IMG/VR virus record: IMGVR_UViG_3300018432_000018
Location: 1 to 48,982 of that record
Direction: 5' to 3' (one strand)
DNA length: 48,982 bases
Source: a virus
Notes under the pieces: model-generated
Told to the model about the DNA's origin: nothing
The model's database searches: none
Seen by the model: the letters and a program-made list of their open reading frames with translations, nothing else
Position numbers and translations under genes: made by a program
In this document: in pieces, positions 31,685 through 43,942 of the stretch
Numbering within the stretch: the stretch's first letter is position 1
How the letters are laid out: each line of letters begins with the position of its first letter

Positions 31685-31917
31685 CACGGCTTGAGCCTCC
31701 GTATCAGCAGGAAGTTGCAGTGAGTGATGGTCGTCACGTTGCCGCACTCCTCACACTGACCCTGCCGGTACAGGACGTTCGGGATGGCCATGGTCTGCCG
31801 CTGCCCACAGGTGGAGCACGTCCACTTCTGGTACAGCACGTCCCCCCGTGGGACGAGCTCCTCGAAGCTCTTCAGGACCTCCTCGATGGGGTAGTCCGGC
31901 GCGTCAGACTTCGACAT
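31684..31917 (-). CDS. Zinc-ribbon protein, 77 residues
   Basis: Two CxxC pairs about 20 residues apart (TCSTCGQRQ and CEECGNVT) form a standard zinc ribbon after an acidic 30-residue lead. Likely binds nucleic acid or a protein partner. It overlaps the ADP-ribosyltransferase-like gene by 14 bases, so the two are probably co-expressed. Confidence 0.76.
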   Translation of the reverse strand: MSKSDAPDYPIEEVLKSFEELVPRGDVLYQKWTCSTCGQRQTMAIPNVLYRQGQCEECGNVTTITHCNFLLIRRLKP

Positions 31918-32653
31918 CAGTGGCCATCACATCGAAGGGGTTCACGATCACCTCGCTCTCGCCCCTCGCTGTGAGGTAGGCGTAGACATGCTTGCGCTTG
32001 ACCTTGGCGACGATGATGGCCGGGTTCGGTCGGTTCCTGACGCGGAGGGCCGCGCCATGAGCGAACTTCTCCGCCACGCTCTTGTCAAGGGACCATGCGA
32101 TGCCCACCGGCAACCTGTCCGGGTCCCTGCCGAACGTGTCATCGTCGAAGGCGTCCTGCCCCCGGTAGATGCGGAGCACCGCACCGGGCAACGGACGCCC
32201 GTCCGTGATGGGACGCCGCTTGTTGTGAAGCCACGCCTTGTGCCACATCGTCAGGAACCGGACATCGGTGTCGTCCGGATCACTGAACGCCCACAGCTCA
32301 GGGAGGATCTCGAACAGCTCCTCCTCGGTGCAGTACCCACGATCCTGCGCCCGCAGCGCGAAGTCCACCCGTCCGTACGAGCCGACGAAGTGCAGCGCCC
32401 GCTGGAAACTGACACCAGCCTCCAGCATCTTGTCGCTGCGCTCAGCGCTGACCAGATCGCCGGCCATGATGATGGCCGTGATGTACGGGAGGCTGGGGTC
32501 CTTGTCGAGGAGCTCCTGCGCCTTCCGTGTCCGTGGCTCCTCACGCTCAGCGAGAGCCTTGGGGTCATCGAATGGAACGGGCGGGAAGAAGGAGTCGACG
32601 AGGATGTCCTCGTCGCTCTTCTCCCTCTGCCCGGTGGCCGGGTTCGGGTCCAT
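31904..32653 (-). CDS. ADP-ribosyltransferase-like protein (R-S-E class)
   Basis: 249 residues, GGAGGCTCAACC upstream. The C-terminal half shows the three-part motif of NAD-dependent arginine-type ADP-ribosyltransferases: LRIYRGQD (R161 or R164, NAD site), GIAWSLDKSVAEKFA (S188, followed by the usual helix), and RGESEVIV (E232-x-E234, catalytic). The first 120 residues are helical and unrelated to anything I know. If active it would move ADP-ribose from NAD to a host or phage target, as T4 Alt/ModA/ModB do with host transcription and translation factors. Confidence 0.75.
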   Translation of the reverse strand: MDPNPATGQREKSDEDILVDSFFPPVPFDDPKALAEREEPRTRKAQELLDKDPSLPYITAIIMAGDLVSAERSDKMLEAGVSFQRALHFVGSYGRVDFALRAQDRGYCTEEELFEILPELWAFSDPDDTDVRFLTMWHKAWLHNKRRPITDGRPLPGAVLRIYRGQDAFDDDTFGRDPDRLPVGIAWSLDKSVAEKFAHGAALRVRNRPNPAIIVAKVKRKHVYAYLTARGESEVIVNPFDVMATDVEV

Positions 32654-33559: not shown

Positions 33560-34543
33560 TCACCCGACGGCTTCTTCGGCCATCTCCTGCACGGTCAGAT
33601 CGGCAAGGCCAGTGAACACCTTCCCCTGCTTTTCGGTCTGTTCGCGGGCTCGCTCTTGTTCCTCTTCCTGACTGCCGCACGCCGTGAGCTTGGTGCGGAA
33701 GTAGGACACGATGCTGATGCGCTCGACGCCGCACGTCTCACTGTGATCGAGACGCGGAGCGCCCGACCGAAACGCTCCCATCTGCTCACCGCAGACGTTG
33801 CACGTCATGGCCGTGTTCCCATGCCAGCGGTGAGCATCCATCAGGATCAGGTCACCGTGCTGCATGTCCACGGCGACCCGGTTCTCCACGAAGGTGAACA
33901 GGCCACCGCTGTAGGAGCCGCGCCGGAGCACGGCGAGGGTGCTGAACCCCTCGTCCAGATCACCGCTGTCGGTGTGAACACCCGTGGGGTACGAGTTGTT
34001 CACGGTGATGGTTGTGAACGGTGTGCCCTCGATGATCCAGTCCGGGTGCGTGTCCCTCACCTGCCGCATCTGGTTGGTCCATCGGTCGGGCACGTTCTCA
34101 GCGAAGTGACGCCCGATCAACTGGAACAGCGGGAACAGGCTCCGGTACTTGTTCCACTCCTTGCCGGACCACGCGGTCAGGCGACAGTAGCGGAACTGGC
34201 CTCCCGGGTCGATGCTCCCGATGATGGCGCTCGACACGTTCGGTGCATAGGTCACGGCTCCCTCTGCGTACCGCTTCTCCCGAGTGCCGCCGCTGGCGAG
34301 CCCTCGGTTGCTGCTGACGGTCTTCCTGAGCTCGTGGAGCACGTCGTAGGACCCGTCGAGGGTCTCACCCTTGAGGATCCCAGGAAGGTAGATGGCGAGC
34401 AGCGTGCCCGTGGTGTCCTTGACGATGGTGGGACCCACCAGCAGGATGTCGATGTCGGCGTTGCCGACGAGCTTCCCCTTCTTCTGCTCCAGATCCTCGG
34501 CGCTGATCTTGGTCCGCACCCGGACCTCACTGAACGCGGTCAC
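33560..34543 (-). CDS. TET/JBP-type Fe(II)/2-oxoglutarate DNA dioxygenase
   Basis: 327 residues, GTG start in a GTGA overlap with the glycosyltransferase gene. Double-stranded beta-helix motifs: metal ligands H190-x-D192 (SYPTGVHTDSGD), distal His H238 or H241 (DAHRWHGNTAM), and the 2-oxoglutarate-binding Arg R275 in VERISIVSYFR. The middle strands RRGSYSGGLFTFVENRVAVD fit the TET/JBP branch that oxidises methyl groups of 5-methylcytosine or thymine in DNA. Between the distal His and R275 is a putative zinc site (C248, C251, H267, C271). The C-terminus is charged (EEEQERAREQTEKQ). Confidence 0.87.
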   Translation of the reverse strand: MTAFSEVRVRTKISAEDLEQKKGKLVGNADIDILLVGPTIVKDTTGTLLAIYLPGILKGETLDGSYDVLHELRKTVSSNRGLASGGTREKRYAEGAVTYAPNVSSAIIGSIDPGGQFRYCRLTAWSGKEWNKYRSLFPLFQLIGRHFAENVPDRWTNQMRQVRDTHPDWIIEGTPFTTITVNNSYPTGVHTDSGDLDEGFSTLAVLRRGSYSGGLFTFVENRVAVDMQHGDLILMDAHRWHGNTAMTCNVCGEQMGAFRSGAPRLDHSETCGVERISIVSYFRTKLTACGSQEEEQERAREQTEKQGKVFTGLADLTVQEMAEEAVG

Positions 34544-35361
34544 TTCGCTACCTCATTGCCAGCCGTGTCGTAGGTCTTGCCCTTGCGCTGAGGCAGGAGC
34601 TTGAGCTCGTACTGACTGCTCGTCTCCTCGAACACCGGCTCACTGGTCAGTGTAGGGAAAAGTGCGTGAAGACGGTGAGCTCCCTCGCTCCTGGATACTT
34701 CCGTCCGATAGGTCTGCATCCCGCCGTGCTTGGCGTAGTAGTCAGCGTCGATGCAGACGTACCCGCACCTGATGACGCCACCGTGCTGGAGGTAGAAGCG
34801 GATGGTCCGCTCGTAGTCCTCCTTCTCGTCGATCACGGTCTGCGCTGGCGGGTCCTTGACGGTGAAGCCATAGAACCCACCCACGATGAGGCGCAGGTCG
34901 GTGGTGATGACCCGCTTCATGAAGAAGCCGTTGCTGATGGGATAGAGGCCGAACAGCGTGTCGTCATAGAGCGTGGCGACCCGCCGGAGTGTGCGGATGG
35001 TCATCGGCAGGTTGGCTGGCACGAGCTTCTTGTTCCTGTCGATGGTGAGGTAGCCCTTGATGTCGTCGTCCGTGCTGACGAGCTTCGTGCCCACCGGGTA
35101 CGAGCGGGCGATCAGGTTGCGGACGCCGCGCACGCAGAGCGTCTGCTCGCCTGTGTCCGCGAGGGTGTAGGTGCGAACGGTGATGCCAGCCTCGTCGCGG
35201 ACAGCGGCGCGGTAGGCATCCCCCTCCTCTTCTGCGACCCATACCTCCACCTTCTCGATGGAGCATCCCGCTGCTTTCAGCGAGGTGATGGTGCGCGCCA
35301 CGATGGTCTCGTGACGCCCACGGCTCGGGATGGTGAGCACGTCCCACGGTGCTGTGCTCAT
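34540..35361 (-). CDS. TET-associated-type glycosyltransferase
   Basis: 273 residues, ATG at 35361 in an ATGA overlap. GT-A-like features: start LTIPSRGRHETI, then TLCVRGVRNLIAR, the metal/nucleotide-sugar DDD at 98-100 (VSTDDDI), SNGFFMKR, an acidic EKEDYERTIRFYLQHGG at about 179-195 and a late YAKHGGMQTYR. This order matches glycosyltransferases found next to phage TET/JBP oxygenases, which put a sugar on oxidised DNA bases. Sugar donor and product are unknown. Confidence 0.82.
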   Translation of the reverse strand: MSTAPWDVLTIPSRGRHETIVARTITSLKAAGCSIEKVEVWVAEEEGDAYRAAVRDEAGITVRTYTLADTGEQTLCVRGVRNLIARSYPVGTKLVSTDDDIKGYLTIDRNKKLVPANLPMTIRTLRRVATLYDDTLFGLYPISNGFFMKRVITTDLRLIVGGFYGFTVKDPPAQTVIDEKEDYERTIRFYLQHGGVIRCGYVCIDADYYAKHGGMQTYRTEVSRSEGAHRLHALFPTLTSEPVFEETSSQYELKLLPQRKGKTYDTAGNEVAK

Positions 35362-35783
35362 GCGGGCACCGCCTCGTTGAGTGGCGTGGTCAGGTCGTGG
35401 GGCCGGACAGCACCCTCGTCGACCACGCATCTTCCAGCGGCGCTACCGCTCGGGATGGAGTACCTGCTGCGAACGAATGACCGTGCGCCCTTGCGCTTGA
35501 AGTAGGTGTCGATGGTCGGGTTCGGGTGGTTCTTGATGCCATGCTCACAGAACACGCCCACCAGCGCCGTCTCATCCCGGAACACATGCGTCAGCACGTG
35601 GAGCGGCAACGGAATGAGGACCGTGCGGATCTCCCCCGTGTCACGGTCGATGCTGGGGAACCCCTCCTCGTCGGTGGCGTTCACGCGCACGTCCTCGTAG
35701 CGGCCTACCCGGAGGCAGGAGCCACAGGCTGAGCACAGGACGTGTTGCGTGTCGGTGCAAACCTCCGGCTGGATGAAGCTCAT
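35358..35783 (-). CDS. Unknown protein of the modification cassette
   Basis: 141 residues, ATGA overlaps on both sides. N-terminal CTDTQHVLCSACGSCLRVG has five Cys within 20 residues (possible zinc or metal site), then YEDVRVN, EIRTVLIPLPLHVLTHVFRD and a basic segment TYFKRKGARSFVRS. No known family. The rigid gene order makes a role in base modification likely: DNA binding, a partner of the oxygenase, or a step after glycosylation. Confidence 0.72.
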   Translation of the reverse strand: MSFIQPEVCTDTQHVLCSACGSCLRVGRYEDVRVNATDEEGFPSIDRDTGEIRTVLIPLPLHVLTHVFRDETALVGVFCEHGIKNHPNPTIDTYFKRKGARSFVRSRYSIPSGSAAGRCVVDEGAVRPHDLTTPLNEAVPA

Positions 35784-36718
35784 GCTTCGCCGCCGAGGTC
35801 TTGCAGTCCGGGGAGCTCCTCGTAGGGGATGTCCGTGGGCCACAACGGCTCAGGTTCTGGATCAGGTGCCTTCACCTTCTCCACCTTGGGAATGAACCTG
35901 TCGATGCACCCGAGGATCACCGTGCGAGTGAAGGCAAGGTCGCTGATGCTGGTGACGAGCAGCCGGAGGTCGAGCATCGCGCTCCGCACCGCCATCTCCG
36001 TCGCCGTCAGCGGTGCGATCTCACCAGCGACGTTCTGCCCTCCCTGCTCCCATGCGCGCTGGCGCTTGACCGCCTCCAGCACGGTGTCGATGGTCCCCTT
36101 GGTGCCGAACGCCTTCCGCAGCTCCTGAACGCTGCTGGCGAAGTCGGCGTAGTCGTTCTTGCTGAACCGGAGCGGAACCTCGTTGAGCCGACCGCTCTCG
36201 CGGTGGGTCTCAGCCCGCTCCTTCACCTTGGCCTCGAACTCAGGATCCAACTGAGCGTAGTCCGCTTCGGTTGCGGCACCACTCAGGGTGGCGAGGCCCT
36301 CCAGCTCATCTTCCAGATCAGCCAGTTCCTCGTCATCCCACAGGGTGCCCATCAGGCCCGTCTCGTCGGACAGCCGACGGAGGCCGCTTGCGAGCTTCGC
36401 CTTGTCGTACCCTGCGAGGTCACTGGAGCGGTTGTCGTCGAGGAGGAATGCGTAGGCCTCCTCGTCGTCCATCTCCTGGAACACCATGGCCGCGTCAGGC
36501 CAGCCGATCTCCTTGGCTGCCGCCCACGTCCCGTTCCCCTTGACGATCCTCCCCGTGCTGGCTTGGACCACGATGGGAGCCCGCTGACCGTGGGTCAACA
36601 GGCTCTTCGTGATCTTGTCCAGCCGGTGCTTGCGCACGTTGTCAGGATGCGGCCGAGCATCCGCCAGTGGATGTCGGTACTGCTCCAACTCGGGTGCGAT
36701 GCTGCTCTTGACTGGCAC
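35780..36718 (-). CDS. ParB-like protein of the modification cassette
   Basis: 312 residues, GTG start with GGGAGGCTCTG upstream. ParB N-terminal domain at about 20-100: ARPHPDNVRKHRLDKITKSL, IVVQASTGRIVKGNGTWAAA (GNGTWxAA in place of the usual GxGRxxA), LLDDNRSSDLAGYD. The C-terminal half is acidic and helical, with a Pro/Glu-rich linker (KAPDPEPEPLWP). Solo ParB domains are frequent beside phage DNA-modification genes and in some cases act as nucleases or CTPases. First gene of the four-gene unit. Confidence 0.84.
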   Translation of the reverse strand: MPVKSSIAPELEQYRHPLADARPHPDNVRKHRLDKITKSLLTHGQRAPIVVQASTGRIVKGNGTWAAAKEIGWPDAAMVFQEMDDEEAYAFLLDDNRSSDLAGYDKAKLASGLRRLSDETGLMGTLWDDEELADLEDELEGLATLSGAATEADYAQLDPEFEAKVKERAETHRESGRLNEVPLRFSKNDYADFASSVQELRKAFGTKGTIDTVLEAVKRQRAWEQGGQNVAGEIAPLTATEMAVRSAMLDLRLLVTSISDLAFTRTVILGCIDRFIPKVEKVKAPDPEPEPLWPTDIPYEELPGLQDLGGEA

Positions 36719-36737
36719 CAGAGCCTCCCTATAGAAC

Positions 36738-42814: not shown

Positions 42815-43942
42815 TCAGGCGGTGGCGGGTGCCGCCTCTTCCTTGGGCTCCGGCTGAGGGACGAGCGCCTCGGCTGCCGTCAGGGCCTCCTGCGTCGCGT
42901 CGAGCCGCTCCTGGATGAGCGCCGCCGCTTCGGCGAGGCTGTCCCGGTACTCCCGGAGGCCATCCAGACCCTTGGGCCACGGCTTGCCGGACTGGAGCAT
43001 GGCCTTGACCACGTCCGGGAGCTTGTTCCGTGCCGCCCGGGGCGGTGCCTGACGGATGGACTGGATCGCCTCGTGGAGCTGCCGTGGGAGGACATCCCCC
43101 GGCGTGTGCATGGGCTTGACCGGAAGCCCTTCCCGAGCCTCCCCATTGACGGTGGTGTCCTCTTCGGCAGCCACCGCCTCCTCGCGCTCCTCGAGGATCC
43201 GGAGCGCACCCTTCAAGGTGATCTCCTTGTTCTCCATGGCATCCGCCAGATCCGGAGCGTGGGTGCGCAGCCGCTGGATGTCGTGCTCCTTGGCCCGCTG
43301 GTCCTCGCTCTTGAGCGACTTGGCTGCTGCCTTGGGGGTCATCACCCCGGACTTGACCTTGTCGTGGAGCTCCGTGTCCCGCATGATGGCCGTGGCTTGC
43401 GTGGTGGAGAGCTCGCCGTCCTTGATGGCCTTCGCCAGTTCGGGAGCCTTCTTCATCAAGCCAGCCGCCTCATCGACGACCGTCTTGCCGACGCCGATCT
43501 TGTCGGCTGCCTCCTGAGCGGACGACTTGCCCTCTTCGGCTGCCACCCCGCTCTTGATGCGCTCCGCTGCCTCCTCGCGGATCTTGAGCCATGTGGGCGA
43601 CATGACGAGCAACATGGCCCGCTGGCTCTTGCTGAGGTGACGGCGGCTGGCGGCTGCCAGGATCATGTAGTCATAGGGATCGGGCGGATCGATGACCCGG
43701 ACCGGCACTGACTGGATGCCGAGGTTCATGGCGATCTGCCACCGGGTACGGCCATCAACGATGGTGCCGTCCCCGAGGATCTCGATCGGGACCTGGATGC
43801 CTCGCTGGCTGATGTCCAGCACCATCTCATCCCACTGGTCCTCGTCCGGCGTGGGCACGTCCTCCGCCTTGGCGTGGGGGCGCAGATCCGACGTGGGACG
43901 CTCCTGGACGGGGGTGGGCTTGATCTTCGTGTCTGTTGCCAT
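42815..43942 (-). CDS. ParB/Spo0J-like protein
   Basis: 375 residues, GGAGGCTCACTCAC upstream. ParB N-domain at about 10-105: ERPTSDLRPHAKAEDVPTPD, RGIQVPIEILGDGTIVDGRT, RWQIAMNLGIQSVPVRVI, and a central helical domain with AASRRHLSKSQRAML. A long helical/coiled-coil region and an Ala/Glu tail follow. Unlike the cassette ParB it keeps the usual DGRTRWQIA motif. Could bind and organise phage DNA or regulate transcription; a partition role is unlikely without a ParA. Confidence 0.84.
   Translation of the reverse strand: MATDTKIKPTPVQERPTSDLRPHAKAEDVPTPDEDQWDEMVLDISQRGIQVPIEILGDGTIVDGRTRWQIAMNLGIQSVPVRVIDPPDPYDYMILAAASRRHLSKSQRAMLLVMSPTWLKIREEAAERIKSGVAAEEGKSSAQEAADKIGVGKTVVDEAAGLMKKAPELAKAIKDGELSTTQATAIMRDTELHDKVKSGVMTPKAAAKSLKSEDQRAKEHDIQRLRTHAPDLADAMENKEITLKGALRILEEREEAVAAEEDTTVNGEAREGLPVKPMHTPGDVLPRQLHEAIQSIRQAPPRAARNKLPDVVKAMLQSGKPWPKGLDGLREYRDSLAEAAALIQERLDATQEALTAAEALVPQPEPKEEAAPATA

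Follow-up and report, generated by a model that had tools for sequence, protein, structure and literature searches.

The viral record IMGVR_UViG_3300018432_000018, a linear sequence of 48,982 bases analysed over its whole length (the window, to which all coordinates refer), carries four minus-strand genes (33560-36718) that encode, in order, a ParB-like protein, a protein of 141 amino acids (aa), a glycosyltransferase (GT) and a dioxygenase of the TET/JBP family. Our analysis indicates that the TET enzyme probably makes 5-hydroxymethyluracil (5hmU) from thymine in the phage's own DNA and that the GT, of the TET-associated glycosyltransferase (TAGT) type, would glycosylate it in a base-J-like manner, protecting the DNA. 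The cassette is a divergent new example of a published ParB-TET-TAGT operon type known from Mycobacterium and Arthrobacter phages, and what is new is a clue to the substrate provided by its relatives, which makes thymine, not cytosine, most likely the modified base. The preliminary description of this DNA had proposed that the phage oxidises a base methyl group and adds a sugar. This remains the reading best supported by the sequences and agrees with the published prediction for TET/JBP-TAGT operons (PMC4111573), now refined to thymine instead of methylcytosine.

Cassette layout and protein families

Gene order, protein families, predicted folds, catalytic residues and neighbour statistics were obtained directly. 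Inspection of the reading frames found all four leftward frames exactly as previously described, with a 4-bp stop/start overlap (ATGA or GTGA) at each of the three junctions. The genes and the positions that bear on their function are listed below, all on the minus strand.

36719..36733, minus: ribosome-binding-site-like GGGAGG upstream of the ParB GTG (sequence)
35780..36718, minus: ParB-like protein with a ParB_N domain, first cassette gene, 312 aa (GTG at 36718 to TGA at 35780; Pfam ParB_N, PHROG)
35358..35783, minus: 141-aa Cys/His accessory protein, CxxC...CxHG..HPN...C (ATG at 35783 to TGA at 35358; one relative, in locus L169)
34540..35361, minus: TAGT-type GT-A enzyme, 273 aa (ATG at 35361 to TGA at 34540; Pfam TAGT, fold model)
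35062..35070, minus: DDD motif D98-D100 of the GT, where the nucleotide sugar and metal are expected to bind (no variation in 36 aligned sequences)
33560..34543, minus: TET/JBP-family 2-oxoglutarate/Fe(II) dioxygenase, 327 aa (GTG at 34543 to TGA at 33560; Pfam Tet_JBP, fold model)
33974..33976, minus: codon of H190, first iron ligand of the HxD motif of TET (invariant in alignments)
33968-33970, minus: codon of D192, HxD motif of TET (invariant in alignments)
33821..33823, minus: codon of H241, second iron-ligand histidine (invariant; aligns with the TET2 LHATTP histidine)
33731..33802, minus: C-x2-C...H-x3-C insert in TET, residues 248-271, possible zinc knuckle (alignments)
33719..33721, minus: codon of R275, 2-oxoglutarate-binding arginine (invariant; aligns with the TET2 RISLV arginine)
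33695..33697, minus: codon of R283, candidate specificity residue of TET (profile alignment opposite the histidine of TET2 RISLVFYQH)

Both profile and predicted fold uphold the TET assignment. Pfam Tet_JBP matches the protein at E 6.4e-20 (71.5 bits against a cut-off of 34.9), and a PDB search with an alignment-based TET profile recovered TET2 at E 4e-8, with NgTET1, CcTet and CMD1 weaker. Moreover, the AlphaFold model (pLDDT 89.8) has its best PDB fold matches in CcTet (4.8e-13), NgTET1, TET2 and CMD1, which supports the predicted double-stranded beta-helix fold whose absence was to have refuted the assignment. H190, D192, H241 and R275 are invariant across the aligned phage relatives, as expected from the motif proposed for this enzyme, whereas H238, offered earlier as an alternative second histidine, varies among them. 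The cysteine- and histidine-containing insert follows the second iron histidine and precedes the 2-oxoglutarate arginine; few relatives carry one, and CxxC after HGNT occurs in 5 of 83 subclade TET sequences, the window included.

The GT carries the motifs IPSRGRHETI and VSTDDDI that had suggested a GT-A enzyme, and its model (pLDDT 95.2) finds its best PDB matches among GT-A enzymes such as RmlT, TarS and TarP, bearing out the predicted fold. The search against TAGT gave a mixed outcome: the window sequence alone scored E 7.7e-5 and 23.1 bits, slightly below the cut-off of 27.5, while all 36 members of the GT alignment matched the family at E 0.01 or better (best 2.9e-19).

Partner genes of the TET subclade

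When the window TET was aligned with three sisters and this alignment served as the query, 145 relatives were recovered from viral contigs and two from genomes, both actinobacterial (Streptomyces africanus and Haloechinothrix alba). As lone queries against viral contigs, the TET, the 141-aa protein and the ParB-like protein each yielded nothing, and alignments of close relatives were required. ParB is present in 65 of the 82 loci selected by TET alone. The 40 complete neighbourhoods of the window's TET subclade include 27 with a P-loop kinase (PF18751) plus an amino acid:DNA transferase (ADDT, PF18724), 11 with a GT and none with both (Fisher p 3e-8, an overstatement since the loci were taken as independent). 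Neither PF18724 nor PF18751 was found in the window, and both are present in sister loci. On the TET tree, ADDT and GT partners must have been exchanged 5-9 times, and the window lies closest to a GT-type locus (L164) and an ADDT-type locus (L163).

The ADDT family was also found in phages M6, ViI and PhiW-14, used as positive controls, whose hypermodified thymidines are derived from 5-hydroxymethyldeoxyuridine (5hmdU) via a DNA kinase (PMC6449724). Since the same TET subclade pairs either with ADDT, the family of these 5hmU-modifying phages, or with TAGT, the TET product that feeds both branches is most likely 5hmU. The sister-locus kinases are of a different Pfam family from M6 gp54, which Pfam identifies as a 5hmdU DNA kinase (PF18748), and a custom profile built from them matches gp54 only to the degree expected among P-loop kinases.

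The linkage was also approached from the GT side, where a viral-contig scan with a five-sequence GT alignment gave 132 relatives, of which 80 were kept. Nearly all of these 80 loci contain a TET, often adjacent or overlapping, and 56 of 89 loci examined have a ParB-like gene no more than 3 kb away; as the loci were chosen by GT similarity, these TET and ParB links carry information, unlike the GT count itself. Because a TET accompanies nearly every relative picked by GT similarity alone, the TET-GT link is far above chance. We abandoned the view that this TET has the GT as an obligate partner, which arose from GT-based locus choice, given that loci selected by TET more often carry the kinase and ADDT.

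Locus L169, the neighbourhood of which is incomplete, has the order ParB, 141-aa relative, ADDT-like, dual-specificity-phosphatase-like, kinase, TET and TAGT, and its TET and ParB are 51% and 42% (over 305 residues) identical to those of the window. From this comparison, the window cassette looks like a relative of the L169 cassette in which the GT replaces the middle genes. The phosphatase-like gene (L169:6729-7178), between the ADDT-like gene and the kinase, could conceivably have a role in phosphorylated-base chemistry. A further cassette, ParB-ADDT-FAD oxidoreductase-kinase-TET, occurs on a 92,743-base contig of Streptomyces africanus (L244/L174) that is found in IMG/VR and as a bacterial contig and is probably a prophage or phage. 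Additionally, the Mycobacterium phage Donny has a gene annotated as adenylate kinase (L010:3022-3588) that matches the PF18751 P-loop kinase at E 1e-62 and follows its TET, GT and deacetylase, so that genes of the sugar branch and the kinase family of the other branch stand in one phage.

The ParB-like protein, recognized as such in the earlier annotation, is confirmed by ParB_N just above the Pfam cut-off (26.7 against 26.3 bits) and by a PHROG ParB-like match at E 9e-27; a second ParB-like protein is encoded outside the cassette (42815-43942, minus strand). The 141-aa protein had been described as a Cys-rich unknown and as a possible new component. Its frame is sound and the cysteine richness mild, with six cysteines, and searches of Pfam (best 0.17), PHROG, NCBIfam, PDB and phages gave no match. 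It ceased to be an orphan once a relative turned up at L169:5323-5700 (E 2e-11, 34% identical), the sole one detectable, since a wider search with the pair again returned L169 only. C17, C20, C79, H81, H86 and C119 are conserved between the two proteins, both of which follow ParB directly with a 4-bp overlap. The protein is thus a real component, albeit an optional accessory, and our guess from the motif is that it may be a zinc-binding helper.

Thymine or cytosine as the predicted target base

A methylcytosine route was tested through the cytosine-C5 methyltransferase family PF00145 and is disfavoured, as there was no match in the window or beside its close relatives. None was found in 44 GT-type viral records or in nine of ten named TET phages either, the only positive being Methylophilales phage Melnitz-3, and PF00145 occurs in 29 of 29 records of the Melnitz-type TET clade. 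Counted by locus, a C5 methyltransferase accompanies 66 of 71 Melnitz-type TETs versus 0 of 80 GT-selected relatives, and it is absent from the neighbourhood of all 82 loci of the window's TET-selected subclade. Whole records of this subclade have a PF00145 match somewhere in 3 of 38 cases, one of them the 92,743-base record listed as Streptomyces africanus. GT-type and Melnitz-type TETs are the two sides of one fully supported tree branch, and the methyltransferase contrast follows these clades, representing effectively one or two evolutionary events and not 150.

A hydroxymethylase acting at the nucleotide level was sought in TET phages through the thymidylate-synthase family PF00303, which includes dUMP hydroxymethylases. 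No match was found in 44 TET-phage records, including the window, so that TET is the one source of the hydroxymethyl group observed; M6 does encode a member of the family, gp58, annotated as thymidylate synthase.

Position 283 of the TET also differs between clades. In the profile alignment it lies opposite a TET2 histidine, presumably the base-contacting H1904, and it is Arg in the window, in 52 of 52 HGNT-type TETs, in 4 of 4 sisters and in 82 of 82 members of the TET-selected subclade. The 68 methyltransferase-linked TETs have Asp (65) or Gly (3) there, and 22 of 24 HGVT-type TETs have Leu, Ile or Met. R283 is hypothesized on this basis as a base-specificity residue.

Several observations count against thymine, the first being that the distribution of residues at position 283 tracks clade and hence is not independent evidence. 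Fragments make up most of the compared records, which are in part redundant; related sequences enter the locus counts, and L169 carries an ADDT-like gene and TAGT together. Most of the remaining objections converge on a different substrate, namely that TET oxidises 5-methylcytosine, host-made or from an unseen methyltransferase, to 5-hydroxymethylcytosine (5hmC), which the GT then glycosylates. 5-Methylcytosine is the substrate of the structurally characterised TET family members, and its oxidation by some metagenomic phage TETs has been demonstrated. The GT weakly matches phrog_842, a T-even 5hmC glucosyltransferase family, at 1e-4, and D195 of the window TET, which the methyltransferase-linked clade also has, lies where NgTET1 presumably has its aspartate in contact with the amino group of cytosine. 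Besides, host 5-methylcytosine could serve as substrate, and the linear record may be incomplete, with a methyltransferase lying outside it. We nevertheless regard the cytosine route as unlikely, in view of the absence of a C5 methyltransferase both from the window and from the neighbourhood of all its close relatives, the separate position of the methyltransferase-bearing clade with Asp instead of Arg at 283, and the kinase and ADDT partners of the same TET subclade, which point to 5hmU.

Other explanations fare worse. The TET could make 5-hydroxymethyl bases while the GT acts elsewhere, for instance on a virion protein or the cell envelope, the two genes being mere neighbours. The best structural matches of the GT do include wall teichoic acid glycosyltransferases, but GT relatives chosen regardless of TET nearly always have one in the locus, often overlapping, and the GT swaps with a DNA-base transferase inside the subclade, which renders this explanation improbable. 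It is still harder to accept that TET and ParB regulate or remove host methyl marks and produce no hypermodification, even though TET enzymes act in demethylation in animals. Against it stand the arrangement with a TAGT in one operon of overlapping genes, the association of TAGT and JBP-like genes in the literature (PMC4111573) and the fact that a base-excision partner was not seen in the cassette. The least credible proposal, a decayed or inactive remnant, has the low Pfam score of the GT and nothing further in its favour, against four open frames, translational overlaps and the retention of all catalytic residues.

Under the favoured reading of glycosylated 5hmU, we infer that the phage would modify its own DNA after replication. 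TET would oxidise the thymine methyl group in DNA to 5hmU, and the GT would use a nucleotide sugar to glycosylate the new hydroxymethyl group. The resulting glycosyloxymethyluracil, similar to base J, may block host nucleases. Recruitment of the enzymes to DNA is probably the task of the ParB-like protein, through binding or clamping, and the 141-aa protein would assist as the optional, possibly zinc-binding helper. The transferred sugar is less likely to be a deacetylated amino sugar, because no glucosaminyl deacetylase was detected among the window's predicted genes in the scan, unlike in several relatives. A glucosaminyl-deacetylase-like gene lies in or near some TET-GT cassettes (L088, L043, L015, L017, L073 and L084), which suggests transfer of N-acetylglucosamine (GlcNAc) followed by deacetylation in those phages.

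A wider hypothesis can be formulated, for and against which the case seems evenly balanced. A large phage TET clade would consist of thymine hydroxylases that make 5hmU in DNA and replace an M6-like nucleotide-level hydroxymethylase, 5hmU would be a shared hub from which lineages repeatedly swapped the TAGT sugar branch for the kinase and ADDT branch, and the residue at position 283, Arg in the window and Asp in methyltransferase-linked TETs, would determine base choice from the site of the base-reading histidine of TET2. Thymine-acting phage TETs were proposed years ago, and their substrate and product are still treated as predictions in the literature found; the neighbour pattern makes the thymine question directly testable, with one predicted specificity residue. 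If the hypothesis is true, a phage enzyme converting thymine to 5hmU, together with decorating transferases, would be useful for DNA labelling and sequencing.

Phage context and comparison with known systems

The left part of the record holds terminase, portal, capsid, tape measure and tail genes, indicating a tailed phage, and the right part encodes RecT, a RecE/YqaJ-like exonuclease and a VRR-NUC nuclease. The host is likely an actinobacterium, because both genome matches of the TET subclade are actinobacterial and the terminase has about 30% identity to its counterparts in Pontimonas and Streptomyces phages. Downstream of the cassette, a 249-aa protein (31904-32653, minus strand) shows by eye an ADP-ribosyltransferase-like pattern, YRGQ...WSLDKSVAEKFA...ESEVIV; Pfam and PDB searches with it gave no match, and its PHROG matches were groups of unknown function only.

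In public records the TETs of phages HTVC112P (L002), DLP6 (L004), Cr30 (L005) and S-CBWM1 (L007) are labelled SNF2 DNA repair proteins, apparently a spreading misannotation. Moreover, the TET of Donny (gene 2) is annotated as hypothetical and M6 gp54 as terminase small subunit.

The closest published systems are the TET/JBP-TAGT operons of actinobacteriophages. Linkage of phage TAGTs to JBP-like genes has been described, together with the postulate that 5hmU is their substrate; for Acadian the suggested product is GlcNAc-5hmU (PMC4111573, citing Iyer 2013). Donny (Acadianvirus) encodes ParB, an unannotated TET (PF12851 match), GT and deacetylase, and the Arthrobacter phages Altadena and Klevey encode ParB, TET, GT and glucosaminyl deacetylase. 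The operons of Acadian/Donny, Altadena and Klevey share with the window a ParB-like protein, TET and TAGT-type GT in one operon and the lack of a C5 methyltransferase. They differ in their order (ParB-TET-GT versus ParB-141aa-GT-TET), in the added deacetylase, none of which was found in the window, and in their TETs, which belong to a different clade with an HGVT motif and mostly Leu, Ile or Met at 283 and are about 20% identical to that of the window.

The ParB-TET-kinase-ADDT loci (L163, L169 and L174/L244 of Streptomyces africanus) are nearer in sequence, as they have the same kind of ParB and TETs of the window's own subclade (about 50% identity), whereas their downstream chemistry would be phosphorylation and amino-acid transfer instead of glycosylation. 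Phages M6, ViI and PhiW-14 have in common with the window the proposed intermediate, 5hmU in DNA, and their ADDT also occurs in its sister loci. Phages of this type, however, make 5hmdU as a nucleotide that is then polymerised into DNA (PMC6449724, PMC5977210), while the window TET would make 5hmU within DNA. The Melnitz-type, methyltransferase-linked phage TETs have the same catalytic motif as the window TET and differ by the C5 methyltransferase in the locus, their separate clade and Asp at 283. In its proposed chemistry, finally, the cassette resembles kinetoplastid JBP1/JBP2 and the J glucosyltransferase, which convert thymine to 5hmU and then to glycosylated 5hmU (PMC4111573). Base J is a eukaryotic base that replaces about 1% of thymine, and the likeness drawn to the window concerns the proposed chemistry.

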